The position numbers and the translations under genes were made by a program. Below the pieces are notes generated by a model. The model was not told the DNA's origin. It did no database searches and saw only the letters and a program-made list of their open reading frames with translations. From assembly GCF_002309535.1 (NCBI RefSeq), contig NZ_CP023275.1, positions 1,736,001 through 1,800,000 of the forward strand: a DNA stretch of 64,000 nt. The letters run 5' to 3'. This document shows positions 15,154 through 48,928 of this stretch, piece after piece (the first letter of the stretch is position 1; each line of letters begins with the position of its first letter). Origin of the DNA: Sulfurospirillum diekertiae (lineage in GTDB: Bacteria > Campylobacterota > Campylobacteria > Campylobacterales > Sulfurospirillaceae).

Positions 15154-15159
15154 CCATAT

Positions 15160-16254
15160 TTAGCGTGATCTTCGCCTAAAAAAGATCATTGCAATACTCA
15201 TAGAAATAATCCCTAAAAAAAGCATCGGCACAATCTGACTCCAAGCAATCTCCCACGAAATATCTTTTAGAAAAACACCTTTGATCAGAACAAGATAATA
15301 TTTAAGCGGTGTAAGTGTCGTTAAAGGCTGTAACCATGAAGGCATATTTTCCACAGGTGTCGCAAAACCTGAGAGTAAAATCGACGGAAGCAAGAAAACA
15401 AAGGAGCCTAAGATAGCTTGTTGTTGGGTATTTGAAAGCGCTGAGATAAATAAACCAATACCTGAGATGGAAAACAAAAAGACGATCACGCCTGTATAAA
15501 GGATGGTTAAAGAGCCCATAAAGGGAACACCAAAAAGATAAAGAGCTGCAAGCAAAATTAAGAAAGACTCACTCATGCTAATCAACAAAGCGGGCACCAA
15601 CTTTCCAATCAAAATCTCAAACGGGCGCAGAGGAGAGACCAGAATTTGATCAAACGTTCCCAGCTCTCGCTCTCTCGCAATCGAAAGTGCTGTTAACAGC
15701 ATCGCTACCACCATCGTAATCGTGCCAAAAAGGTTGGGCACAATCCACCAAAAATTACTCAAATTGGGATTAAAAAAGAAGCGTGTTTGAATGCTAATAG
15801 CACTTGTTGAGGGTTGTTTACTCAGAAAAAAAGTTTGCACGATACTGCTTAAATACCCCTCCACAATTTGTGCCGTGTTGGAGCGTCTTCCATCCAGTAA
15901 GAGTTGCACATTGGCTTTAGCGCTTAAAACCTCTTTGCCAAAACCACTGGGGATGACAAGAACGGCTAAGACTTTTTGAGTATTGATAAGCCCTTCAATC
16001 TCACCTTGATGGTGAACACGAAGCAATTTTTGGACGTACGAAGAGCCTTTGAGATTCTGAATCAACTCTTGGCTTGTGTGTGATCCATCTTGATCAAAAA
16101 CAGCTAAATCAATATGCTTCACTTCCAAAGTCGCAGCAAAGGAGAACATCATCACTTGAATAAGCGGAGGTACAATCACCACAAAAAGGCTTTTTTTGTC
16201 ATTTTTGATCGCCAATGCTTCTTTGCGAATCAATGCCAATAATCGACCTATCAT
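15160..16254 (-). CDS. ABC-2 exporter permease, YbhR-like
   Basis: 364 residues from ATG 16252-16254, which overlaps the stop of the preceding permease gene (ATGA). It has one N-terminal helix, a large external domain of about 140 residues, and five C-terminal helices, the ABC2_membrane_3 layout. The segment R-E-R-E-L-G-T-F-D-Q-I-L-V-S-P is the cytoplasmic coupling motif that contacts the ATPase. With the neighbouring permease it forms the transmembrane part of a YbhFSR-type exporter. It is the last gene of a five-gene operon. Confidence 0.9.
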   Translation of the reverse strand: MIGRLLALIRKEALAIKNDKKSLFVVIVPPLIQVMMFSFAATLEVKHIDLAVFDQDGSHTSQELIQNLKGSSYVQKLLRVHHQGEIEGLINTQKVLAVLVIPSGFGKEVLSAKANVQLLLDGRRSNTAQIVEGYLSSIVQTFFLSKQPSTSAISIQTRFFFNPNLSNFWWIVPNLFGTITMVVAMLLTALSIARERELGTFDQILVSPLRPFEILIGKLVPALLISMSESFLILLAALYLFGVPFMGSLTILYTGVIVFLFSISGIGLFISALSNTQQQAILGSFVFLLPSILLSGFATPVENMPSWLQPLTTLTPLKYYLVLIKGVFLKDISWEIAWSQIVPMLFLGIISMSIAMIFFRRRSR

Positions 16255-17342
16255 TCCAACCCCTTCTTTGTTTTTTTCACCACAAGAGTGAAAAAGAAAA
16301 GCCCTACAACAAACATACACACCATATCTTTGATAAAAATGGAAGGGATATTGCCCACTAGAAAAATTGTCTGTAAAGACTCTACAAAATACCGAGCAGG
16401 GATGATATACGTAAAATACTGTAATACTATAGGCATATTGTTGATCTCAAACAAAAAGCCTGAGAGTAAAAAGGCAGGTAAAAACCCTGCGATAATGGAA
16501 ACTTGCGCAGCCACAAATTGATTTTTAGCGATGGTAGAGATGAGTAAACCAATGCTAAGGGAAGGGAACAGGTAAAAAGCACTGAGTAAAAGCAAAATGC
16601 CAAAATTGCCATTAAAAGGAATCTCATACCAAAAATAGGCCACCACAAAACACAAAAGCATCGAGCCTAATCCCAAAATAAAATATGGGATTAATTTTCC
16701 TAAAAGAATCTCTATCATCGATGTAGGTGTTGCCATGAGCGCTTCCATCGTACCTCGCTCCCATTCTCTAGCTATGACTAAAGCGGTGAGCAAAATTCCA
16801 ATAAGCGTCATGACAACACTGATGGAGCCGGGAATCAGAAAGTACCGACTCGAAAGCGGCGGATTGAACCAATAACGAGGCACAATCGTGATACCACGTG
16901 AGGGCATAATTCCCTCTTCAATGGCCCACGTTTGGATGATTTTAGAGGCGTAATTTTGAGTCAATCCACCCGTATTGGGTTCGGTTGCATCGATGAGGAT
17001 TTGAATGCTATAGTTGTTGTGTTTGCCAAAGGACTCAGGCACTTCTAAAACGCCTTTAAGTTCATTATCTTGAAGCGATTGCATCAACTCTTTTTTGCTG
17101 TAAGCAATGTGCGTCTTAAAAAAAGAAGAGCCAACAAACGAAGAAACCAAGTCATGCGCTTCTTTGGTGTTACTTTTATTGATAATTCCTAAAGGAATAT
17201 TGCGCGCATCCAACGAGACGGCATAGCCCATTAAAAAGAGTAAGATCAACGGCAAAATGACCGCAATCAAAATGGCACTAGGATCACGGATGATTTGCAA
17301 GCTCTCTTTGATTAAAAGTGCCCAAAGTCGTTTGCGGTTCAT
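16251..17342 (-). CDS. ABC-2 exporter permease, YbhS-like
   Basis: 363 residues with the same topology as its neighbour: an N-terminal helix (about residues 22-41), a soluble domain, and five C-terminal helices. The coupling segment R-E-W-E-R-G-T-M-E-A-L-M-A-T-P is near residue 190. It pairs with the YbhR-like permease and the double ATPase. The gene overlaps both neighbours by four bases, so the subunits are produced in step. Confidence 0.9.
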   Translation of the reverse strand: MNRKRLWALLIKESLQIIRDPSAILIAVILPLILLFLMGYAVSLDARNIPLGIINKSNTKEAHDLVSSFVGSSFFKTHIAYSKKELMQSLQDNELKGVLEVPESFGKHNNYSIQILIDATEPNTGGLTQNYASKIIQTWAIEEGIMPSRGITIVPRYWFNPPLSSRYFLIPGSISVVMTLIGILLTALVIAREWERGTMEALMATPTSMIEILLGKLIPYFILGLGSMLLCFVVAYFWYEIPFNGNFGILLLLSAFYLFPSLSIGLLISTIAKNQFVAAQVSIIAGFLPAFLLSGFLFEINNMPIVLQYFTYIIPARYFVESLQTIFLVGNIPSIFIKDMVCMFVVGLFFFTLVVKKTKKGLE

Positions 17343-19045
17343 CGTCTGACTTTCGCATCGTAATCATGAATTAACTGGATAAACGCCTCTTCCATCGTTG
17401 CGTTGGCAGAGATTTGGTGCTTGAGCTCATCGGGCGTTCCTGTGGCGATGGCTTTTCCATGATAAATCAGCATAATACGATCACAATACTCCGCTTCATC
17501 CATAAAGTGCGTTGTCACCATCACAGAAACCCCTTTTTTAACGATGCCATTAATATGCGTCCAAAACTCTTTTCGCGTAATAGGATCAACCCCGCTCGTA
17601 GGCTCATCTAAAAACAAAACAGAAGGTTCATGCATCAGCGCACATGCCAGTGCCAAACGCTGTTTAATACCTAAAGGCAACAGTTCTGCTTTTGTTGTTA
17701 AATGTGACTCAAAATCAAAAGTTTCAATAATATCCTGAATTTTTTGGGTATAGTGCTTCCCACTCAATCCATAGATACCTGCAAAAAATTCTAAATTGTT
17801 GATGATATTTAACGTACTGTAAAGTGAAAATTTTTGTGCCATATACCCAATGTATGAACGCACTTCTGCGCCTGCCGTGTAAAGGTTTTCACCCATAACC
17901 AACGCTGTTCCTTCTGTTGGAACCAGCAACCCACACAACATCTTAAACGTGGTTGATTTACCTGCACCATTAGGCCCTAAAAAACCAAAAATTTCTCCTC
18001 GTCCAATCTTGAAGTCAATATGATCTGTCGCTGTAAAATTTCCAAACGTTTTGGTCAATTTTTTCGCCTCAATCAAATAACCTTGATGCTCTTTTTTAGG
18101 TGCCATTTGATTTGCCAAAAGCGATTCTGGCTCGGTTTTGACGCCTAGTAAGCGCACAAAAGCATCTTCAAAGGTAGGGGCACATACTGCAAAACTTGCC
18201 CGAGTATCGTACCCACTTAGATGCACAATGGGAAAGGACGTTCCTGCTTTAAGATTGACACGAATAGTATTGCCTACCAAAACAGCATCCATGACGTCAG
18301 GGGCATGTAAGAGGTGTGTTAAAAGCCTTCGTTTATCGGTGCTGATAGTGCTTACAAGATAGACTTCTCCCTTAAGAGGCTCTTTCATTTTCTGGGGAAA
18401 TCCTTGGTAAAGAGAGACACCAACATTCAGTAAAATAACCGAATCACACTTATCAGCCTCATCCAGATAAGACGTTCCCCACAAAACCGCGACATCTTCT
18501 TTTATAAGTGTTTGGATCATTTCCCATAGATTGATGCGCGAAATCGGATCGACCCCAACACCAGGTTCATCCAGAAGCAAAAGTTTTGGCTTTTTAATCA
18601 AAGCGCAGGCAAGGCCAAGTTTTTGTTTCATTCCCCCTGAGAGTGCACCTGCTTTTCGGGTACGAAACTCTAAAAGCGATGTAAATTCCAATAACTCTTG
18701 AATACGCTCTTTCGGCGCTTCCACATCTTGCAAAGCAGCATAAAGTCGTAAATTTTCATCCACGCTCAAATCTTCATAGAGTCCAAATTTTTGAGGCATA
18801 TAGCCAATTTGTTGCAAAAGGGAACTTTGCGTACACGGCATCAAGGTTCCTAAAATTTCCAATTTTCCAGAAGTTGGGGCTAGCAATCCTGCTAACATGC
18901 GTATCAGCGTCGTTTTCCCTGCACCATCAGGACCTACAAGTCCTGTAATTTTTCCCGTTTCGATGGAAAAATTAAGCGCATGAAGTGCTGGTGTATCTTT
19001 ATTGGGGAAGATTTTAGAGAGCTGTTCCGCCGTGACGATGGTCAT
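17339..19045 (-). CDS. Tandem ABC ATPase, YbhF-like
   Basis: 568 residues holding two ABC ATPase domains. Domain 1 has Walker A G-P-D-G-A-G-K-T-T near residue 37, signature L-S-G-G-M-K-Q and Walker B L-L-L-L-D-E-P-G-V-G-V-D-P. Domain 2 has Walker A G-P-N-G-A-G-K-S-T near residue 353, a divergent signature L-P-L-G-I-K-Q and Walker B L-F-L-D-E-P-T-S-G-V-D-P. E. coli YbhF, as I recall it, shows the same substitutions, which supports orthology. It powers the YbhS/YbhR-like permeases. In E. coli this system has been linked to export of drugs and Na+/Li+; the substrate here is unknown. Confidence 0.92.
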   Translation of the reverse strand: MTIVTAEQLSKIFPNKDTPALHALNFSIETGKITGLVGPDGAGKTTLIRMLAGLLAPTSGKLEILGTLMPCTQSSLLQQIGYMPQKFGLYEDLSVDENLRLYAALQDVEAPKERIQELLEFTSLLEFRTRKAGALSGGMKQKLGLACALIKKPKLLLLDEPGVGVDPISRINLWEMIQTLIKEDVAVLWGTSYLDEADKCDSVILLNVGVSLYQGFPQKMKEPLKGEVYLVSTISTDKRRLLTHLLHAPDVMDAVLVGNTIRVNLKAGTSFPIVHLSGYDTRASFAVCAPTFEDAFVRLLGVKTEPESLLANQMAPKKEHQGYLIEAKKLTKTFGNFTATDHIDFKIGRGEIFGFLGPNGAGKSTTFKMLCGLLVPTEGTALVMGENLYTAGAEVRSYIGYMAQKFSLYSTLNIINNLEFFAGIYGLSGKHYTQKIQDIIETFDFESHLTTKAELLPLGIKQRLALACALMHEPSVLFLDEPTSGVDPITRKEFWTHINGIVKKGVSVMVTTHFMDEAEYCDRIMLIYHGKAIATGTPDELKHQISANATMEEAFIQLIHDYDAKVRR

Positions 19046-20028
19046 TTTTGGGTATCTTCTTTACATTTGATGGTAATGGGCATCCCTTGTTTTAAATGCG
19101 AATCTGGATTTTTAATAATCACACGAAAACGGTACACAAGGTCAGGACGAAGTTCTGTCGTCTCAATGTTTTTAGGGGTAAATTCTGCCACGGGAGAGAT
19201 AAAACCAATACTGCCTTCATAAGGCTCTTTACGTGAATCAATGTAAACTAACATAGACTCACCTTGCGTAATTTTGCCTAAAAGTGGCTCAGCAACATAC
19301 GCTTTGACCCAATATTCATCTTCCAAAGCAATTTCCAAGATACTCTGAGCTGCACTCACGATGGATGAGGGCTCTTTATAACGCGCAAGGACCGTTCCTT
19401 GGGTCGGCGCATACAGTGTTGCATCCTCTATGTCATGCTCTACGCTTTTGGCTTGGGCAATCAAAGACAACACGGTTGCTTTTTGCATTTCAATATCTTC
19501 ATCCCGATAACCTTTACGTTCTAACTCATAATAACTGAGCGCTTTATCGTAACTGGCATTGGCTTGATCGTATTGTGTTTTTGCAGAAATATAATCTTGC
19601 TCAGTTGTTGCATCGACCTTTAAAAGCTTTTCTTGCCTGATATAAACATCTTTTATTCCCACTAAGGCCGCTTTTGTCTCTTCAACACTTGCCTTTGCTT
19701 GAGCAATTTCTTCAACACGATAGCCTTTGGTAAGCTTGGCTAAGGTCGCTTTTGCAGCCATAATTTGTGCGTTGAGATTGTCTAATTGATAGTGTAACGC
19801 GGTAGTATCTAAGCGCACCAAAGGCTCACCTTTACTGAAAGACTCACCTTCATCTTTGGCAATGCTTTGAATCGTGCCTAAAAATCGAAAGGATAAATCT
19901 TGCGTACGGTTTTCAATGTTACCGTAAAAAACCAATGGCTTTTCCTGTCCTTTGACGTGACTGTAGTAATAATACCCTCCGCCGACACCTAAGATAACCA
20001 GTAGTAGAAGTAAGACTAATTTTTTCAT
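19042..20028 (-). CDS. HlyD/YbhG-like periplasmic adaptor
   Basis: 328 residues from ATG 20026-20028, which overlaps the stop of the TetR gene. Residues 3-20 are a signal anchor. A biotinyl-lipoyl half, a long coiled coil (about residues 80-190, with the A-T-L-A-K-L-T-K-G-Y-R-V-E-E-I pattern of the YbhG group) and a C-terminal beta-barrel follow. It would link the ABC exporter to an outer-membrane channel. No channel gene is in this operon, so it may borrow one. Confidence 0.92.
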   Translation of the reverse strand: MKKLVLLLLLVILGVGGGYYYYSHVKGQEKPLVFYGNIENRTQDLSFRFLGTIQSIAKDEGESFSKGEPLVRLDTTALHYQLDNLNAQIMAAKATLAKLTKGYRVEEIAQAKASVEETKAALVGIKDVYIRQEKLLKVDATTEQDYISAKTQYDQANASYDKALSYYELERKGYRDEDIEMQKATVLSLIAQAKSVEHDIEDATLYAPTQGTVLARYKEPSSIVSAAQSILEIALEDEYWVKAYVAEPLLGKITQGESMLVYIDSRKEPYEGSIGFISPVAEFTPKNIETTELRPDLVYRFRVIIKNPDSHLKQGMPITIKCKEDTQK

Positions 20029-20708
20029 GCTTGATCCCTTTTGGCAACTAATCCCCAAAGAATATATTCTGTATTCTCAAGAATGGTGCGAATAATAATG
20101 TCCATATTTTCCTCCTGAGTTTCCTCTAAAAAAGGCATACGTTGCGTGATGGTAATTTGTTGTACGCTAAAAATGACAATTTGACCCAACAGTGTGTGCG
20201 TTCTTGCCCTCACGTCAGGTGAATTCATCGCTTGTTGGCTAATGCGTGCAACCAAATCATCTATGATCGTAAGTATTGGCTCTAACCCTTGTTGATACAA
20301 CAGTTCAAACCCTTTTGATGGCGTCATTTGCTCTCTGATGATAATGCGGTGTAAATAATTATTTTCTTTGAGCCTACCGATAATCAATCGTGCAATCATC
20401 TCTAAAAGATGTTTCAACCAATAAATATAAAATGCATCTGAGGCGACGGTATCTTTTTGCGCCACAGTAAAGGCATTCATAAACTCGGTAGCTTTTTGCG
20501 CCATCATCTGCGTAATAGTGTTCACCACCGCTAAATAAAGCTCTTCCTTACTTCCATAATAATAATTGATCGAGGAAATATTGACATTGGCTTCTTTGGC
20601 AAGTTCTCTCACGGAAACATCCTCCAAAGAGCGCTCCCCAAAAAGCCTGTACGCTGTCTGCAATATTTTTTCTTTCGGTAATTTTGATTGGGTGGAATCT
20701 TTTAACAA
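20025..20708 (-). CDS. TetR-family regulator, CecR(YbiH)-like
   Basis: 227 residues. The N-terminal helix-turn-helix reads V-S-V-R-E-L-A-K-E-A-N-V then S-S-I-N-Y-Y-Y-G-S-K-E-E. The C-terminal domain is long and helical, like CecR, which in E. coli heads the equivalent ybiH-ybhGFSR operon. I use the TTG at 20706-20708, with AAGGAG seven bases upstream. It is the first gene of the exporter operon, so it is probably an autorepressor. Candidate operators are at 20750-20775. Confidence 0.88.
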   Translation of the reverse strand: MLKDSTQSKLPKEKILQTAYRLFGERSLEDVSVRELAKEANVNISSINYYYGSKEELYLAVVNTITQMMAQKATEFMNAFTVAQKDTVASDAFYIYWLKHLLEMIARLIIGRLKENNYLHRIIIREQMTPSKGFELLYQQGLEPILTIIDDLVARISQQAMNSPDVRARTHTLLGQIVIFSVQQITITQRMPFLEETQEENMDIIIRTILENTEYILWGLVAKRDQA

Positions 20709-20749
20709 ATCAGTACTCCTTCGCCACTTTATAATGGAAAGCTTAACAC

Positions 20750-20775
20750 AAACACTTGTTTAAGTCAAACGTTTG
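20750..20775. promoter_or_regulatory. Two adjacent palindromes, candidate operator of the CecR-like regulator
   Basis: AAACA-CT-TGTTT (20750-20761) and CAAAC-GTTTG (20766-20775) share the same half-site and lie side by side, 41-67 bases upstream of the regulator's start. A TATAAA -10-like box is at 20729-20734, so the palindromes cover the -35 region. This is the expected position for a TetR-type repressor. Confidence 0.55.
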
Positions 20776-20874
20776 TTTTAATTTTATACTTAGCCATTTG
20801 TATAGAGTGATTCATTTTACTTTCTTAGACTAAAAAGCTAGGGCTAAAGTATTTTTATATGTAAAACTTTAGTA

Positions 20875-21917
20875 TTATAATGCTACTTTGATACAGTTTC
20901 GACCGCTATTTTTTGCCTCATACAACGCTAAATCAGCACGTGAAACCATCAATGTATCGGTATCGTTCTCTTTATACAGTGTAACGCCTATACTAATGGT
21001 GCGTTTGCCCACGTGCGCAAAGACATGCTCTTCTATTGTGAGACGAATTGTTTCGACCAATGTCAGTATGCCAGGAAGTGAACTCTCCAAACAGATTAAA
21101 GCGAACTCTTCGCCACCCCAACGCACCAGCACATCCGTTGAACGAATACAGCTTTGAATAACCGTCGATATTTCGACTAAAAACGTATCGCCGACATGAT
21201 GCCCATGAGTGTCATTGACCGACTTAAAATAATCAATATCCATTATGACTAAACCAAACGTATGATGAAATCGTTCAGTGCGAGCTAACTCATGCGATAA
21301 AACTTCATCAAATTTTGCACGATTGTAAAGACCTGTGAGTTTGTCGGTAACAGCAAGCTTTGCCAGTATCTCTTTATTTTTAAATACTTTTTTGTTTGAG
21401 CGCTCTAGCAGGTAAGCGCCTAACCCCCAAATGAGGTTGCACAAAAAATCCAAAACAGATGCATTATAAATTCTTGAGATGAAAGATATAGACTGGAAAA
21501 AAGAGAGATAAAAATGATCATACTGACACTAATAATGGCAAGAAAAAGCCTTAATCCAGAAAGAATAAAAGCCCAAAAAATAATAAAATACGTTTCTGGC
21601 ATATAAAAGGTTGGATCTCCAAGTTTTGAGAGAATCAGAAAATTTCCAAAATTTGCAATAATGGGAGCTACTATAGTAGAATAGGTCAAAAGGGAATGAT
21701 GTTTTTCAAAAAAAGTCAGCCCAGCGACCACTAATAAGAGAGGGCAGAGAAAATACAAATGGATTGTATGAACAAAAAATAACGATTTAGAAGGGACAAT
21801 AAAAGGATCAATTTGAGCAAATATACAATATAACGCAGCCGTTAAAAGGGAAATATAACGAACTTGCAAAACCTTTGAAGATTGTATCCATTGATTGTAT
21901 TTTGCCGTATCAAACAC
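20875..21917 (-). pseudogene. Membrane diguanylate cyclase split by a one-base frameshift
   Basis: The first part (21917-21420) starts at GTG with GAGGA upstream and encodes about six membrane helices, ending in F-C-A-T-S-F-G-G then a stop. The second part is in the next frame and continues with L-G-A-Y-L-L-E-R-S, a short linker and a complete GGDEF domain (signature G-G-E-E-F; I-site-like R-S-T-D upstream; D-x-D-Y-F-K). The junction is a run of five G on the coding strand (21424-21428); a sixth G would restore one protein of about 346 residues. The GGDEF half has an in-frame ATG at 21453 but no good ribosome binding site. This may be a real mutation or a sequencing error. Confidence 0.75.
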
Positions 21918-22047
21918 GCTGTTATCCTCTATATATACCCAAAAATAGATAGATAAAATCTATCACTTAGGGATTAACATTAAGACATGAACCAAGAAAA
22001 ATAAAATCTTTACATGTAAGAAATTTAGAGTAAGCTCTAAAGAGGAA

Positions 22048-22069
22048 AAGAGGTGCGTTCACACCTCTT
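22048..22069 (-). terminator. purL terminator
   Basis: On the minus strand, 8 bases beyond the purL stop, the stem AAGAGGTG / CACCTCTT with a 6-base loop is followed by TTCCTCTTT. This is a convincing intrinsic terminator for purL. Confidence 0.75.
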
Positions 22070-22076
22070 AAAGTTT

Positions 22077-24278
22077 TTAGATATCTTGTTCAACCACTTC
22101 CACAAAACGGTTAAAATAACGCTCACAAATAGCTTCAACGCTTTTTGAAACATCATTACATGTAAAGCTATTTCCACCAACTTTTCCGATTTTGACAACG
22201 CTAATGCCAACAGCTTTTGCTTTTGCTTCAAAACCTGCTTCATCATTTACTTCTACAATTGCGCGTGAAAAACTCTCTGCAAAAATGTCTTTAGCATCCT
22301 TACATGTAAAGTTACATGTAACGCCTTTTTTGCTTTTCGCGACCATCTTCGCCAGTGCAATTGCTATACCGCCAACGTTCACATCTTTAGCCGCATTCAA
22401 GAAACCTTTTTTATTGGCTTCGATGACGAGTTCCCATAGTTTTAACTCTGTGTCGTAATTAAGTTCTGCCAAAGTGCCTTCGACTTTGCCAAAAAGCTCT
22501 TTCATATACAAGCTAGCACCAAAATCACTCTTCGTTTCGCCAATCAAATAAACACTTGCGCCCTCTTTTTGAAAACAAGAAGGAAGCGTTTTATTTGCAT
22601 TATCATTGAGTCCCACCATAACAATGGCAGGCGTTGGGAAAACACCCACGCCATTGGTTTCGTTATAAAGAGAAACGTTACCGCTGACAACGGGTGTGTT
22701 CAACTTCGCACATGCCTCTTTGATGCCATAACACCCCTCAGCGAATTGCCACATGACTTCAGGGTTTTCAGGATTTCCATAGTTCAAACAATCGGTAATC
22801 GCGAGAGGTCGTGCACCACTCATCGCAACATTTCGTCCACTCTCAGCGACAGCCGCAGCAGCGCCCATTTTTGGGTCAATGTAGTTATAACGCGGGTTAC
22901 AATCACTGCTCATGGAGAGTGCTTTTCCATTTTCTTTGATACGTATCACACTTGCATCCAAACTGCCGGGGGCTTTAATGGTATTGGTTTGAACGGTTGA
23001 ATCGTATTGGTTAAAAATCCATGTTTTATCGCTGACTTCGACAGAATTTAAAAGGGTGTCGAACGCTTTTTGGTTGTCCACTTTGGCAAAATCATTGATC
23101 GTTGTATGTTTAATCAAAGCCAAATAGGCTGGCTCTTTGGTTGGTCGATCATAAATAGGCGCTTGCTCGCTCACCGGTTGTACGGGCATATCTGCCACTC
23201 GCTCGCCATGCCAGAAAAGTTCCATATTGCCCGTTGCGGTGACTTCACCGATGATTTCAGCGTTAAGGTCCCATTTTCTAAAGATATCAACGACTTTGTC
23301 CTCATACCCTTTTTTTGCACAGATAAGCATGCGTTCTTGGGACTCTGAGAGCATAAATTCAAAGGGTTGCATCCCCTCTTCACGCGCTGGGACTTTATCT
23401 AAGTGCATAATCATACCGCTACCACTGCGTCCTGCCATCTCAAAGGCGCTTGATGTAAGTCCTGCCGCACCCATATCTTGAATGCCCACGATGTAGTCTG
23501 TTTTAAAGAGTTCTAAACACGCTTCCAAAAGAAGTTTCTCGGCAAATGGATCGCCTACTTGAACGGTGGGACGAAGGCTTTTGTTGGCTTCAGTAAAGCT
23601 ATCACTCGCCATAACAGCCCCACCCAGTCCATCACGTCCTGTTTTAGAACCCACATACACAACAGGATTGCCTAGTCCTTCAGCTTTTCCGTAAAAAATC
23701 TCATCACTTTTAGCAAGACCCAACGTAAAGGCATTGACCAAAATATTGCCATTGTAACTCTCATCAAAAAACGTCTCACCACCAATGGTCGGTACACCCA
23801 TACAGTTACCGTAACCGCCGATGCCCGCAACAACACCACGGACAAGAAAACGTTGGTGACGTGAGATATCATCGTTATTTGTGACATTTCCAAAACGAAG
23901 GGAGTTCATGTTTGCAACAGGTCGCGCACCCATGGTAAAGACGTCTCTTAAAATTCCGCCAACACCCGTTGCTGCACCTTGGTACGGTTCAATAAAGCTT
24001 GGGTGATTGTGAGATTCCATCTTAAAGACCGCTGCCATACCATCGCCTACATCGATAACACCCGCATTTTCACCCGGTCCTTGAATAACCCATGGCGCTT
24101 TGGTTGGGAAGCCATTGAGGTATTTTTTACTGGATTTATACGAACAGTGCTCACTCCACATGGATGAGAAGATACCAATCTCTAAAAGATTTGGCTCACG
24201 TCCTAAAATGTTCAAAATATTTTCATATTCGTCTTTGGTTAACTTATGTTTTTTTAACACTGCGTCTAAATTTTCCAT
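22077..24278 (-). CDS. purL: Phosphoribosylformylglycinamidine synthase, large subunit
   Basis: 733 residues, the length of the small-type PurL that works with PurS and PurQ. It makes FGAM from FGAR, ATP and ammonia. The N-terminal [11 protein letters not shown] active-site motif is near residue 40, with E-S-H-N-H-P-S near 88 and G-x-G-G-x-x-R-D near 105. Two AIRS-type domains follow one another. Its last ~100 residues carry three copies of the TTACATGTAA palindrome (22156, 22300, 22312), each read as T-C-N or F-T-C-K. It appears to be transcribed alone. Confidence 0.97.
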
Positions 24279-24339: not shown

Positions 24340-26229
24340 TTAGTTTTGATCTAAAGAGGTTTCCCAAGCTTCCGCGCTCATGGGTTTTGCAAACAGAAAG
24401 CCTTGCATGCTGTCGCATCCATTTTCAATGAGAAAGGCTTTTTGCGCTTGTGTTTCAACGCCTTCTGCCAATACTTCAAGTTCAAGTGTTTTACCCAAAG
24501 CAATAATCGCTTTAGCAATAGCTTGATCATCCTTGGCTTCTGGTAAATCTTTGATAAAAGAACGATCAATTTTAAGCTTATGCAACGGTAGCTGTTTGAG
24601 GTAACTGAGAGACGAATACCCTGTACCAAAATCATCAATTGAAATTTTGTAGCCCAAATTTTCAAGTTTTTGTAACGTTATAGCAAATTGTTTAGGATTG
24701 CTCATAAAGCAACTCTCGGTTACTTCGAGCTCTATGGTTAAAGCACTCACGCCAACATTCTCACGTATTGCTTCAATTTTCTCAACAAAATCATCTTCTT
24801 CGATTTGTACACTGGAAATATTGATAGCAACAATGACATCCTCAAATAAATTTTGTTGAGACCATGTGTTCAACTGTTCTAACACTTTTTTAAAAATCAA
24901 TAATCCAAGGGGAATGATCAATCTTGTCTCTTCTGCTCTTGCAATAAAACTATCTGGCATCATCATGCCATTAATAGGATGTTGCCACCGAACAAGTGCT
25001 TCAAGACCTGTAATTTTGTTTGTATAAAGATTGACTTCAGGTTGAAAACAAACAATCAATTCGTCATTATCAATCGCTTCTTTTAGGTCATTATCTAACT
25101 TGGAAACATTTAAAAGGTGTTCTGTCATAGAAGATGTATAAAAGGCATAACATTTTTTGCTACTCATTTTTTTAGCTTCGTACATCGCGGTATCTGCATT
25201 TTTCAAGAGGGACTCAAAACTCTTACCATCTTGTGGACAACACGCTACACCCATGCTTGTAGTCACCTTGAAATGTTCTATAGCAACGTCAAGGGGAACA
25301 GTCAAACTATTGGCTAATTTTTCACACAATGCTTCTACATGTAAATGGCCATTTGTCAAAATAACAAATTCATCGCCACCTACACGGGACATAAAATCAG
25401 TTTCAGATAAACACGATAAAAAGCGTTCAGCCACTAATTGAATAACTTTATCACCTAATGTGTGACCATACATATCATTGATCGTTTTAAAACGATCCAA
25501 ATCTAGAAATATAAAAGATAATGCAGGCTCATTGACTAAACGTTTTTCAAGCTCTTGTTTCAAAAAAACACGATTTGGCAGTTTTGTCAAAGGATCATTT
25601 AGAGCTAAAAAAAGCACCTCTTGTTGTGCATTTTTACGATCACTAATGTCACGATGCGTTCCAGCGAGTCTTAATGCAGCACCCATTTTATCGCGTTCTA
25701 CAACAGCACCTGAGCCTTCTATCCAAACCCAATGTCCATTTTGATGACGCATACGAAACTCTATAACATAAGGCTTATTATTTCGAATGGTATTTTCAAT
25801 AGCATTATTTGCAATCATTTGATCATCAGGATGAATTCGATTTGACCAATCCGTATCTATGTCATCAATATCTTCTCGTTTTAAGCCTAAAAAAGAGAGC
25901 CATATATCATTGACAATATGGGTATGATGGACATAATCCCAATCCCAATACCCTAAATTGGCACCTTGAATAACATGCTCCAAACGTTGTTCATTTTCTT
26001 TAAGTTTTTTTTGCATGGATTCAATTTGAAGAATTTTTGTTTTAATCAAACTATAAAGCAGCACTGATGTGATGAAAACAAAAAAGAAACCTTTATAGGT
26101 TGAGAGTGTTGCAAAGAGCGTGGTATTAGTAACAAAATACTCTACTGCATGATCTGAAAAATAGATCCACAACACAGAAAAAAGAGCATAAATAATCACA
26201 ATACGTAAAGGGTTCATGTTAAACAACAT
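24340..26229 (-). CDS. Membrane PAS-GGDEF-EAL c-di-GMP turnover protein
   Basis: 629 residues from ATG 26227-26229. Two N-terminal helices (about residues 7-26 and 40-60) are followed by a PAS domain with PAC motif (W-V-W-I-E-G-S-G). A GGDEF domain with intact V-G-G-D-E-F and an EAL domain with E-A-L-V-R-W, D-D-F-G-T-G-Y and A-E-G-V-E-T come next. Both catalytic signatures are intact, so it may make and break c-di-GMP. An upstream in-frame TTG overlaps the -10 box, so I reject it as start. It is monocistronic. Confidence 0.92.
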   Translation of the reverse strand: MLFNMNPLRIVIIYALFSVLWIYFSDHAVEYFVTNTTLFATLSTYKGFFFVFITSVLLYSLIKTKILQIESMQKKLKENEQRLEHVIQGANLGYWDWDYVHHTHIVNDIWLSFLGLKREDIDDIDTDWSNRIHPDDQMIANNAIENTIRNNKPYVIEFRMRHQNGHWVWIEGSGAVVERDKMGAALRLAGTHRDISDRKNAQQEVLFLALNDPLTKLPNRVFLKQELEKRLVNEPALSFIFLDLDRFKTINDMYGHTLGDKVIQLVAERFLSCLSETDFMSRVGGDEFVILTNGHLHVEALCEKLANSLTVPLDVAIEHFKVTTSMGVACCPQDGKSFESLLKNADTAMYEAKKMSSKKCYAFYTSSMTEHLLNVSKLDNDLKEAIDNDELIVCFQPEVNLYTNKITGLEALVRWQHPINGMMMPDSFIARAEETRLIIPLGLLIFKKVLEQLNTWSQQNLFEDVIVAINISSVQIEEDDFVEKIEAIRENVGVSALTIELEVTESCFMSNPKQFAITLQKLENLGYKISIDDFGTGYSSLSYLKQLPLHKLKIDRSFIKDLPEAKDDQAIAKAIIALGKTLELEVLAEGVETQAQKAFLIENGCDSMQGFLFAKPMSAEAWETSLDQN

Positions 26230-26265
26230 AGGTTTGCTCGCTCTTTCTGAAATTTCTCTTGATCT

Positions 26266-26271
26266 ATTATA
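26266..26271 (-). promoter_or_regulatory. -10 box of the GGDEF-EAL gene
   Basis: A perfect TATAAT on the minus strand, about 37 bases upstream of the chosen ATG. It would put the transcript start near 26259 and give a leader of about 30 bases. Confidence 0.55.
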
Positions 26272-26356
26272 CAATAGGATAATAGATATTTATGGTATTT
26301 TGATATAAATTCAGATAAAATCCAAGCTTCAAATTAACTGTGAGGCGGTACCTTTC

Positions 26357-28968: not shown

Positions 28969-29655
28969 CTATTTTAGAAGGGTTTTGAGTGTCTCATTCA
29001 GCTCTGCGATCAATTTTGCATTGGTCTCTTTTGAAAAGGCAAAATACAAATCGCTCTCTTTGAGAACATAAACAACTTCATATTCGGAGAGATCATTTCC
29101 CATTTCTTGGAGAAGTTGCCATACTGCCTCAACACCAAAAGCAATGGCATCGACACGGTTTTCCTTAAGCTTTTTTAACTGAGAAGTGAGATTGGCAAAA
29201 CGATCCAATTCTTCAGCACGAAAACCAATATCAAATAAAGCTTTTTCAGTTGAAGTACCTGGGATGGTGGCAATTTTATAGCTATGTAAGGCATCAGGTG
29301 ATGCGATAATCATATGTTTACTTTTTTTGGCAATAACTCCCAATGTCATTTTTCCAATAGGACCAACCCATTGAAACAAAGCTTCACGCTCATGGATACG
29401 AGCCATACTGTAGATCATCGTATTTTTTTTATTTAAAACTTCATGATAACCAATCGTCCAAGGTAAAAGGTAAATGTTGTTTTCAAAAATTGTATGGCCA
29501 CTTTTTTGAAATAATTGTTCTAACAAAAGAGTTGCTTGACCCTTAACCTTTCCATTTTCTAAAAAATTATAAGGGGGATTTTGTTCTGTATAGACTTTAA
29601 AAACCTCGGCAGACAAAGAAAAACATAAAAGGAATAAGAGAAAAAAAGATTTCAT
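28969..29655 (-). CDS. Periplasmic solute-binding protein, family 3
   Basis: 228 residues with a cleavable signal peptide (about residues 1-16, ending S-L-S-A). The mature part has the SBP_bac_3 pattern: V-Y-T-E-Q-N-P-P-Y-N-F near the start, then two alpha/beta lobes. No ABC permease is adjacent. Its ATG overlaps the stop of the HD-GYP gene (TAATG), so it is the last gene of a signalling operon. It more likely presents a ligand to the hybrid kinase than serves transport; that is inference. Confidence 0.85.
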   Translation of the reverse strand: MKSFFLLFLLCFSLSAEVFKVYTEQNPPYNFLENGKVKGQATLLLEQLFQKSGHTIFENNIYLLPWTIGYHEVLNKKNTMIYSMARIHEREALFQWVGPIGKMTLGVIAKKSKHMIIASPDALHSYKIATIPGTSTEKALFDIGFRAEELDRFANLTSQLKKLKENRVDAIAFGVEAVWQLLQEMGNDLSEYEVVYVLKESDLYFAFSKETNAKLIAELNETLKTLLK

Positions 29656-30671
29656 TACTTATCTTTAGGTCGGTTGAGTGATTTCCAAGTATAAATAAAC
29701 ATATCAAAATTTTCAAGCAAAATATTGGCAATATCGGGATCAAACTGAGAACCTGACATCATCACAAAATAGTCTTTAACCGCCTTTTCTTCCCAAGGCT
29801 CTTTGTAGACACGTCTATCTAAAAGGGAATCAAAGACATCCGCCACTGCACAAATACGCCCAACTAAAGAGATATCTTCACCTTTTTTACCATAAGGGTA
29901 CCCTTTTCCATCCCAACGCTCATGATGTTCAAGCGCAATGGTTGCCGCTAATTGCATGAGTGCAAATTCAGAGTCAACTAACATCGTATGCCCCAATAGA
30001 GAATGGCTTTGCATCATTTCCCACTCTGTAGTATCCAGTTTTGAAGGTTTATTGAGAATTTCATCACTGATGCCAACTTTACCTATATCATGCAACACAG
30101 ATGCCATTTTAATCTTTTCACACTCTGCTTCATCATGACCTAAAAATTTACACAAAAGATAACAAAATTCTGCTACACGTCTCAAATGTTGACCGGTCTC
30201 TTTAGATTTAAGCTCCGCAATGGAAGCTGCAAGATATGTCATTTCATGATTAAGTTTACGTACTTCTTCCGTTTTATCATTGACTTCTTCTTGCAAATGA
30301 GATTGGAGTTGATACAATGCTATATGTGTTTTAACTCTTGCTTTTAAGACCTTTGCATGAAAAGGCTTTGAAATAAAATCAACAGCACCTAAATTAAACC
30401 CAATCTCTTCAAAATCGCTCCCATCATTCGCAGTGAGAAAAATGACAGGAATCGCATGTGTTTTTTCATTGAGCTTCAATCTACGGCATACTTCATACCC
30501 TGTCATCAAAGGCATATTAATATCCAATAAAATTAAATCAGGAAGGACAGTTTCAGCTAGTAAAATCCCTTTTTTACCCTCTTTTGCAGCATAGACTTCA
30601 TATTCATTCAGTAAAGAACTCAGCATTTCAATATATTCAGGAGTATCTTCAATCACCAAAATTTTAGCCAT
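29655..30671 (-). CDS. Response regulator with HD-GYP c-di-GMP phosphodiesterase
   Basis: 338 residues. A receiver domain (residues 3-120, phospho-Asp in D-L-I-L-L-D-I-N-M-P) is joined by a coiled coil to an HD-GYP domain. H-D-I-G-K-V-G near residue 190 and H-H-E-R-W-D-G-K-G-Y-P near 250 are intact, so it should hydrolyse c-di-GMP. GAGGAGA precedes the ATG and the gene overlaps the hybrid kinase gene by eight bases, marking the two as cognate partners. Confidence 0.93.
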   Translation of the reverse strand: MAKILVIEDTPEYIEMLSSLLNEYEVYAAKEGKKGILLAETVLPDLILLDINMPLMTGYEVCRRLKLNEKTHAIPVIFLTANDGSDFEEIGFNLGAVDFISKPFHAKVLKARVKTHIALYQLQSHLQEEVNDKTEEVRKLNHEMTYLAASIAELKSKETGQHLRRVAEFCYLLCKFLGHDEAECEKIKMASVLHDIGKVGISDEILNKPSKLDTTEWEMMQSHSLLGHTMLVDSEFALMQLAATIALEHHERWDGKGYPYGKKGEDISLVGRICAVADVFDSLLDRRVYKEPWEEKAVKDYFVMMSGSQFDPDIANILLENFDMFIYTWKSLNRPKDK

Positions 30672-46289: not shown

Positions 46290-47588
46290 TCATCCTTTGT
46301 TTCTTATGTTGTTGTCTATCTTTCTTTTGATCATGCTGTTGGTCATTTTGGGTGAGTGATCGTCTTCTTCTACATGAAGTCTAAAATTAAATTCAAACGG
46401 GAAAGAGTCTCGAATACGACGAATTACCTCTTCTTTTAACGCTACACAACGCTCTTTATTTGCAAGAATAAGCTTTACATGTAAACAGTTTTTCTCACAT
46501 ACCGTAAGCTTATAATCTAAAATACGAGGAAAGTGTAAAAGAATTTCATCGAACTCCCTTAAATGAATAGTATGCCCATTAATCTCTATTTTATTTTCAA
46601 TGCGACCAAGCACTTTCTCCATGGTTCGCAAAAATGTCCCACAACCGCATGGCTTCGTAGAAAAGCGTGCCATGTCGCCTGTTTTGTAACGAATAAGAGG
46701 CATTGCTTGACGATGAAGGGTTGTAAAAACAACTTCACCGTATACGCCATCTTCCACAGGCAACCCCGTAACTGGATCTATGATTTCAAAATAGAGATCG
46801 TTTTCTCTTAAATGATAACCCTTAAGGCATTCGCACTCAACTCCTCCACCATATCCCATCTCAGTCATACCGTAATGGTTAAAAACTTGACACTGCCCGT
46901 TATCGCTAAGCGCCTCAATGAGGACATCGGGCACATAATCTGTACTTAAAAGAACTTTTTTTATATGGTTTGCAAATACTTCAGGTTTGGCTTTTTTAAA
47001 GTACAACACCTGCATCGGTATACCCACAATACAGGTAATGTTATTTTCTTCAATACACAAAGCCGTTTTTTCAACATCACTCAATACACCTTGAACGATA
47101 CACTCAATCTTTGAAAGTGCCAATGCTTTTTTGAGTAAATCCCCAATACTTCCATAAGCAGAACCAGGAAGCAGTACCAACACTGTGTCGCTTTCATCAA
47201 CCAAACAGCGCATCCCATGCTGAAAAAAATCAATGGTCAACTCCAAATCTTTCTGCGTAAAAAAGATGCGCTTTTCATCTCCTGTCGTACCCGAAGTATT
47301 TAAAGTCACAATACGTTCAACCTCATTACTCGGGACACAAGCAAAATCATACGCATTGCGTTTAATATCATCAGGGGTTGTAAATGCAATGCGCTCAAAA
47401 TCTTTGAACGATGAGAGAGCGTTTAGGTCAATATCTTTCAACATTGCTTGATAAAATCGGCTTTTCTCTTTTGCATAAGCCAATGTTTTAATCAATTCAC
47501 CAAGCTGATACGCACGCAAGGCTTCTTGGCTTTTGTGTGCGATGTGTGTACGCTCCAATATCCATTGCTCTAAGGGTGTGACCGTCAT
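46290..47588 (-). CDS. AMP-dependent ligase, phenylacetate-CoA-ligase-like (DVU_1553-like)
   Basis: 432 residues of the PaaK/coenzyme F390 synthetase type. The P-loop is N-T-S-G-T-T-G-D-E-K near residue 97, Y-G-M-T-E-M near 238, and K-T-G-D-M-A near 310. These enzymes adenylate a carboxylic acid and usually pass it to CoA. In this cluster the acid could be the product of aldehyde oxidation or a cofactor intermediate; neither can be shown from sequence. It overlaps the radical SAM gene by ATGA. One palindrome at 46474 is read L-H-V-K. Confidence 0.82.
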   Translation of the reverse strand: MTVTPLEQWILERTHIAHKSQEALRAYQLGELIKTLAYAKEKSRFYQAMLKDIDLNALSSFKDFERIAFTTPDDIKRNAYDFACVPSNEVERIVTLNTSGTTGDEKRIFFTQKDLELTIDFFQHGMRCLVDESDTVLVLLPGSAYGSIGDLLKKALALSKIECIVQGVLSDVEKTALCIEENNITCIVGIPMQVLYFKKAKPEVFANHIKKVLLSTDYVPDVLIEALSDNGQCQVFNHYGMTEMGYGGGVECECLKGYHLRENDLYFEIIDPVTGLPVEDGVYGEVVFTTLHRQAMPLIRYKTGDMARFSTKPCGCGTFLRTMEKVLGRIENKIEINGHTIHLREFDEILLHFPRILDYKLTVCEKNCLHVKLILANKERCVALKEEVIRRIRDSFPFEFNFRLHVEEDDHSPKMTNSMIKRKIDNNIRNKG

Positions 47589-48928
47589 CGTATCCTCTTT
47601 GCGCCTCGATAAAGAGACTCTCCATCTCTATTGGTGATGTTATACATACAAAAAGGGATAAGCCTACCATCTGTGGTCGATACATGAATACAACAATCTC
47701 TAATACGCTCTAAATTCACATTCCACGCATCTTGAAATGCCATTCCTGAAATGCTAAAAGCGTTGTTGGCAATGGCACTGAGAATTTTGTCCCAATCAGA
47801 GAGTTTCTCTTCTTGAGCGTATTGTTTTTGATACGACCAATTTCGTGCCACAAAAGCTTTGGCTTTGGTCGCGCCCACTTCTGCTTTTTCGCTTTCACCT
47901 GAACAACATGACCTCTTCGTCACAGGTTTTAAAACATCCTCTTCTATCAAATAATTGCCATTAAAAGAACAGAGCGCATTTTCGCATCCTGGGGGTTGCA
48001 TACTCTGCATACTGACCATCTGATCGGTTTGTTCGCAAATATGTTCCATGACTTCAGGCAAGGTGATTCTATCTGCATCTTTAGGTGTTTCAGGAATACG
48101 TCCAAAATAGCTTACGGGCTGAAAATGCACACCTCTAACGGCAGGAGACCTGCTTATGCCAAAACGTATAATCTCACCAATGCTATCCACATTAATGTTA
48201 GGTACGATGGTAGGAACCAGCACAACACCAATGCCGAATTTTCGGCAATTCTCAATCGCTTGGCATTTAACATCAAACAGAGCCTTTCCACGCAGTTTTT
48301 CATAAATTGCATCATCAATTCCATCAAATTGCAGGAAAATAGAATTGAGTCCTGCTTCTTTTAAAGCTTTTACATAGGCTTCATCATTTGCCATACGAAT
48401 ACCATTGGTATTGACTTGAATGAAAGGAAAACCTAGTTCAACGCCTAGACGAACAATATCTGCTAAATCATCTCTTACCGTTGGTTCACCACCGGAAAGT
48501 TGAATATTGCATTTTCCTGAAGCCTTTAAAATAGTCTCAAACTGAGAACGTAACTGTTTTAACGATGGATCTTTACTCTTGGAATCAAGGGCATCCGCAA
48601 AACAAAAACGACAACTAAGATTACAACGCGTTGTCACTTCAATAAGTGCCGTACACGTATGTTGTCTGTGTGAACTACACAATCCACAATCATAAGGACA
48701 CCCTTGATCTACCTGTGTGATCGGACTTTTGATGTAAGCCCTCTCCTTAGTGCGAATCCACTCGCGCAAGTGCATATTGCCTCGCCATACAACGGTTTTA
48801 AACGCTCCATGTTCTGAGCATACTTTATGTATGTAAGTGGTAGTACCCTCATCGTACATGTAAGCATCAAGCTTACGCAAACAGATTGGGCATAAACTTT
48901 CAATGTGCATTGAAGAGGTCATTGTCAT
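47585..48928 (-). CDS. Radical SAM protein, TrsS-like
   Basis: 447 residues. The radical SAM cluster motif C-N-L-S-C-R-F-C lies at residues 102-109. N-terminal C-P-I-C and C-P-Y-D-C-G-L-C (residues 77-84) and C-terminal cysteines (S-C-C-S near 340, D-C-C-I-H) suggest extra Fe-S clusters. It resembles the (seleno)protein TrsS of Desulfovibrio-type Mop loci. Here all these positions are Cys codons and no in-frame TGA occurs, so this is a non-seleno form. The reaction is unknown. S-G-G-E-P is the SAM-binding GGE motif. Confidence 0.85.
   Translation of the reverse strand: MTMTSSMHIESLCPICLRKLDAYMYDEGTTTYIHKVCSEHGAFKTVVWRGNMHLREWIRTKERAYIKSPITQVDQGCPYDCGLCSSHRQHTCTALIEVTTRCNLSCRFCFADALDSKSKDPSLKQLRSQFETILKASGKCNIQLSGGEPTVRDDLADIVRLGVELGFPFIQVNTNGIRMANDEAYVKALKEAGLNSIFLQFDGIDDAIYEKLRGKALFDVKCQAIENCRKFGIGVVLVPTIVPNINVDSIGEIIRFGISRSPAVRGVHFQPVSYFGRIPETPKDADRITLPEVMEHICEQTDQMVSMQSMQPPGCENALCSFNGNYLIEEDVLKPVTKRSCCSGESEKAEVGATKAKAFVARNWSYQKQYAQEEKLSDWDKILSAIANNAFSISGMAFQDAWNVNLERIRDCCIHVSTTDGRLIPFCMYNITNRDGESLYRGAKRIR

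Follow-up and report, generated by a model that had tools for sequence, protein, structure and literature searches.

ImcA of Pseudomonas aeruginosa PAO1 (PDB 8wcn) is a membrane GGDEF protein in which a six-helix membrane part is followed by the GGDEF domain, and it is the described protein nearest to the one discussed here. A second point of reference is MASE8 (PF20968), which belongs to the MASE group of membrane sensor domains; no report on MASE8 together with GGDEF was found in the literature. Disrupted genes are on record in Sulfurospirillum. As far as the accessible text of PMC7755780 goes, two transposase copies of S. multivorans are marked 'frameshift: not functional', and a response regulator gene of strain JPD-1 is disrupted by a transposase. 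The strains ACSTCE and ACSDCE, both of which carry a plasmid of some 38-40 kb, are assigned to one species with JPD-1 in the available part of PMC8865925.

In this study, we analysed a stretch of 64,000 nucleotides (the window) from the genome of Sulfurospirillum diekertiae (GCF_002309535.1; contig NZ_CP023275.1, positions 1,736,001 to 1,800,000). The genome, called G000 below where it must be told apart from others, is one contig of 2,814,086 bases. We consider it quite probable that the window holds an accessory membrane diguanylate cyclase gene that has suffered a real and fairly recent loss-of-function frameshift.

Layout of the locus

The whole broken gene, a six-helix membrane module followed by a GGDEF domain, lies on the minus strand at 20875-21917 and measures 1,043 bases from its GTG to its final stop. 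The membrane half (165 aa; 21420-21917, minus strand) starts at the GTG at 21917, with AGAGGAT upstream, and ends at a TAG at 21422-21420. The GGDEF half (192 aa; 20875-21453, minus strand) is in the adjacent frame; its first start is a TTG at 21453 and it overlaps the membrane half by 34 bases. Both frames are open over 21420-21531 (minus strand), a stretch bounded upstream by a stop in the GGDEF frame and downstream by the stop that ends the membrane half. At the frame break there is a G5 tract on the minus strand (C5 on the plus strand) at 21424-21428, placed correctly in the sequence-only reading. The upstream neighbour is purL (22077-24278, minus strand), and a terminator-like hairpin lies between the two genes (22048-22069, minus strand).

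The order purL then this gene is also found in another genome of the genus (G021), where an intact gene of 1,044 bases in one frame encodes 347 aa. The two halves in the window are 77% (membrane) and 83% (GGDEF) identical to consecutive parts of this one intact protein, so their arrangement is not a chance juxtaposition. With the halves in adjacent frames and the gene one base shorter than its intact orthologue, the earlier claim of a one-base frameshift splitting a diguanylate cyclase is borne out. In annotation, 20875-21917 should be entered as a single pseudogene, not as a hypothetical protein and a short diguanylate cyclase.

The GGDEF half matched PF00990 (GGDEF) with 149.8 bits against a cut-off of 23.8 (7.3e-44; profile 1-160 of 161). 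Its catalytic and inhibitory-site motifs are all intact, the active-site motif GG[DE]EF being read from the translation as GGEEF and the inhibitory site being represented by an RSTD motif. The structure of the membrane half, predicted from a 15-sequence alignment, is a six-helix bundle (mean pLDDT 83.7, pTM 0.75), which agrees with the six helices proposed from the sequence.

One ancestral gene

The membrane half is rare. It was present in 3 of the 24 genomes of the genus, namely the own genome, G021 and a genome labelled as the same species (G004), and in 11 of the 248 genomes of the order, the own one included. Nine of the ten relatives in the order besides the window have both halves in one complete ORF, and the tenth, G004, has a shortened one. 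A scan of the named-genome contigs with the window half alone gave no relative; profile A1 gave 15 loci, of which four, on contigs of equal length, were taken as identical to G021, G236, G231 and G226, leaving 11 new loci and 21 distinct relatives in total. All 15 profile loci are open through the match: 12 carry an intact GG[DE]EF motif, two (L081 and L088) match the Pfam GGDEF profile with a changed motif, and one (L083) runs on into a histidine kinase.

Since the frame continues past the junction in all 21 distinct relatives, leading into GGDEF in 20 and into the histidine kinase in one, the split is a derived state. Twenty of them are open from end to end, the exception being G004, which is broken elsewhere. 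The comparison with relatives called for in the sequence-only reading showed two separate genes in none of the 21. An origin from two ancestral genes was ruled out by the same continuity at the junction.

The halves are otherwise nearly intact, as had been supposed: of the family-invariant residues, the membrane half retains 19 of 20 and the GGDEF half 34 of 34 (53/54 in total), compared with 53/53 and 53/55 in the controls G021 and G059.

Two sister genomes, two lesions

G004 keeps its frame at the site of the window's lesion and lacks 271 bases, that is, most of the GGDEF domain including the active-site motif, so that 773 bases lie between its GTG and its final stop. A Mutator-family transposase gene (PF00872, 3.1e-104; L006:2204-3406) is located between this gene and purL in G004, at the place of the hairpin (insertion at about 22057-22062 of the window). 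The lesions in the window and in G004 share nothing; the gene was therefore broken twice, independently.

Other differences between the two genomes were seen nearby. Between G000 and G004, synonymous sites diverge by 0.24-0.38 in the tetR-HlyD-ABC-permease block and by 0.73 in purL (window 15159-24278), compared with 0.06 in the next gene, encoding a GGDEF-EAL protein (window 24340-26274). This contrast suggests an imported or recombined block. The window genes at 17339-19045 and 29655-30671 are open here and frame-split in G004, and the ORF at 47585-48928 has its first 27-35 residues in another frame in G004, and vice versa. Outside the window, a second TetR homologue (L014, G000:C1:2645488-2646129) has an in-frame TGA here that is not present in the G004 and G011 copies.

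Nature of the break

At the break, G021 and G004 have a common, different sequence that lacks the G tract and is one base longer than that of the window. Besides the missing base, the window differs from both at this place by several substitutions. The broken codon specifies a bulky hydrophobic residue in seven aligned homologues. The sequence-only reading held that one extra G in the tract would fuse the halves exactly. The net deficit of one base stands; the lesion goes beyond the loss of a G from a conserved tract, because the neighbouring bases differ and the two closest relatives do not have the G5. Slippage in the tract, offered there as a cause, finds no support for the same reasons. 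As read from the alignment, either a small local change affected more than one base, or a single base was lost from a sequence that had already diverged there.

G5 runs are ordinary in this genome, with 67 on both strands in 400 kb, and runs of at least G7 occur at three places in 2.81 Mb. Phase variation by the G tract was ruled out, as the tract is missing in the two closest relatives and long G runs are nearly absent genome-wide. More broadly, the frames might be joined by programmed -1 ribosomal frameshifting, by RNA polymerase slippage on the tract or by a phase-variable switch. The frames overlap (21531-21420), with a G5 and a T6 run inside the overlap, which would suit such a mechanism. 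However, neither run is intact at these places in the two closest relatives; their single frame runs on through a different sequence, so that no slippery site is conserved. Inspection by eye did not reveal a canonical slippery heptamer in the right phase, and a G5 run is short and common in a genome with so few long ones. We regard any joining of the frames as very improbable.

A technical origin deserves more weight. A single missing base beside a homopolymer is an error typical of PacBio RSII-type data, and the gene is otherwise almost intact, with no extra stop having arisen. For Sulfurospirillum sp. JPD-1, PacBio RSII is the only platform named in the accessible text of PMC7755780 (169-fold coverage, HGAP v3.0). 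On this reading an erroneous indel entered the assembly, and the gene is intact in the living strain. However, several substitutions lie exactly at the break in comparison with G021 and G004, and correcting a single miscounted run would not restore the family-like sequence. Nor is the assembly rich in frame breaks: over 400 kb, a strict filter gave 2 split genes among 291 in G000 and 6 among 295 in G004, and looser limits gave 6 split ORFs among 433 and 11 among 427, in a list that includes antisense and twice-counted places. These counts are insensitive to the present gene, which falls below the 70% filter in its identity to G004, and all they show is that breaks are no more frequent in G000 than in G004. 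Since relaxed constraint in the membrane half, described below, is confined to the window branch and also speaks against an error, we think it unlikely that the break is an artefact of assembly, though less so than the joining of frames.

Selective constraint and the age of the break

In the membrane half, the changes at codon positions 1/2/3 numbered 16/10/16 on the window branch, compared with 4/3/16 (G021) and 9/5/22 (G004) on the other two. Non-third against third positions differed between the window and G021 (Fisher, P 0.020) and less clearly between the window and G004 (P 0.068). A purpose-written branch codon model, for which the P values of all 18 branch tests are nominal, gave a dN/dS of 0.48-0.76 for the membrane half on the window branch against 0.12-0.13 elsewhere (P 0.0007-0.002 under three topologies), and neutrality was not rejected on this branch (P 0.06-0.76). 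On the G021 (P 0.26-0.37) and G004 (P 0.75-0.83) branches the dN/dS of the membrane half was not raised.

The GGDEF half gave a dN/dS of 0.25-0.27 on the window branch against about 0.065 (P 0.009-0.043), and neutrality was again not rejected (P 0.085-0.137). This half says nothing specific about constraint, because the branch of the intact G021 gene was raised too (P 0.005-0.049). The two halves favour different topologies, and recombination may blur the branch tests. In summary, relaxed constraint on the window branch is seen for the membrane half; the GGDEF half gives an ambiguous picture.

Neither half of the window gene has a further stop or indel. If the whole branch had drifted neutrally, the two halves together should have gained 2.2-2.6 stops, with a probability of 0.07-0.11 of finding none (0.07-0.21 across three assumptions). 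From the absence of extra stops, most of the divergence may predate the break. Taken together, these results suggest a fairly young break and a weakening of constraint that came before it or at about the same time.

The intactness of the GGDEF half raises the question of whether it is still used. The break may have yielded an orphan six-helix sensor on the one hand and, on the other, a soluble, perhaps unregulated diguanylate cyclase that is made separately, by reinitiation at a TTG or from an internal promoter, and is still under selection. All 34 family-invariant residues of the GGDEF half are kept, the TTG at 21453 lies within the overlap of the halves, and the dN/dS of 0.25-0.27 on the window branch is lower than that of the membrane half, bearing in mind that neutrality was not rejected for it. 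Promoter-like matches were found on the minus strand at 21607-21580 and 21541-21514; they are weak evidence, as there were 10 such matches on both strands against 5.4 (sd 2.5) in shuffles. However, the two-gene arrangement was seen in no relative and no Shine-Dalgarno-like sequence was seen before the TTG. Separate use of the two halves is improbable in our judgement, clearly more so than an assembly error and somewhat less so than a joining of the frames.

Discussion

We prefer the explanation that the gene is a loss-of-function pseudogene. The ancestral protein would have combined a six-helix membrane sensor or anchor with a cytoplasmic GGDEF domain, an architecture taken from the relatives; we infer its enzymatic activity and its role in sensing. 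Through a small local change with a net loss of one base, translation would then end at 21420, 165 codons in and before the GGDEF domain. The domain is probably made poorly or not at all, because the only canonical starts before it in its frame are TTG codons, at 21453 and 21444, and no Shine-Dalgarno-like sequence was seen upstream of either.

Such a loss would be tolerated because the gene is rare in the genus, because many other GGDEF proteins are encoded in this genome and because the gene has also been lost, in a different way, from a sister genome. This genome has 48 GGDEF matches over the cut-off, and with that number of domains the loss of one is probably tolerated. The locus is probably a case of ordinary gene decay and not exceptional. 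Its interest lies in the fact that two close genomes have lost the same accessory c-di-GMP enzyme in parallel, by different lesions, which fits a large, redundant and rapidly changing set of GGDEF proteins.

The membrane module is found in other settings. In the Arcobacteraceae MAG locus L083 (2959-4200) the same six-helix module stands before a HisKA_2 histidine kinase, which would be expected of an interchangeable sensor or anchor. Among L084, L086 and L087 it occurs in Gammaproteobacteria (Thioalkalivibrio, Mangrovibacter). In the Sulfurimonas MAGs L081 and L088 the same module is followed by a GGDEF domain with an altered active-site motif, which is probably catalytically inactive. The membrane half had no Pfam match over threshold, and likewise none was over the cut-off in 8 members of the module. 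Shared with a histidine kinase and over threshold in no Pfam family, the module is a candidate for an unnamed sensor family.

With respect to the described systems, the module resembles MASE8 and the MASE group in its place before GGDEF and in a weak match: MASE8 scored 10 bits with the window half and 17.8 bits (E 0.0039) with the full-length G021 protein. The difference is that both scores are below Pfam's cut-off of 26.2 bits, and, of 8 homologue modules, one matched MASE8 with an E no higher than 1. The disrupted genes of Sulfurospirillum in the accessible text of PMC7755780 are comparable in kind and are genes other than the one at this locus. The nearest likeness is to ImcA, which has the same order of a six-helix membrane part and then GGDEF. 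It was the top Foldseek row for the membrane half (E 0.31, probability 0.99), in a search that gave no row at E <= 0.001. The model of the membrane half superposed on ImcA residues 32-205 with a Z of 12.6 (rmsd 3.7 over 162 residues), to be read with the caveat that helical bundles reach about 13 by common arrangement without kinship. The next structural rows were the membrane bundles of adenylyl cyclase 9 (Z 10.9-11.9). By sequence, the GGDEF half matches positions 220-411 of the ImcA chain (1.6e-26). The locus differs from ImcA in that the sequence identity of the membrane parts is 12% and in that the gene is broken here.
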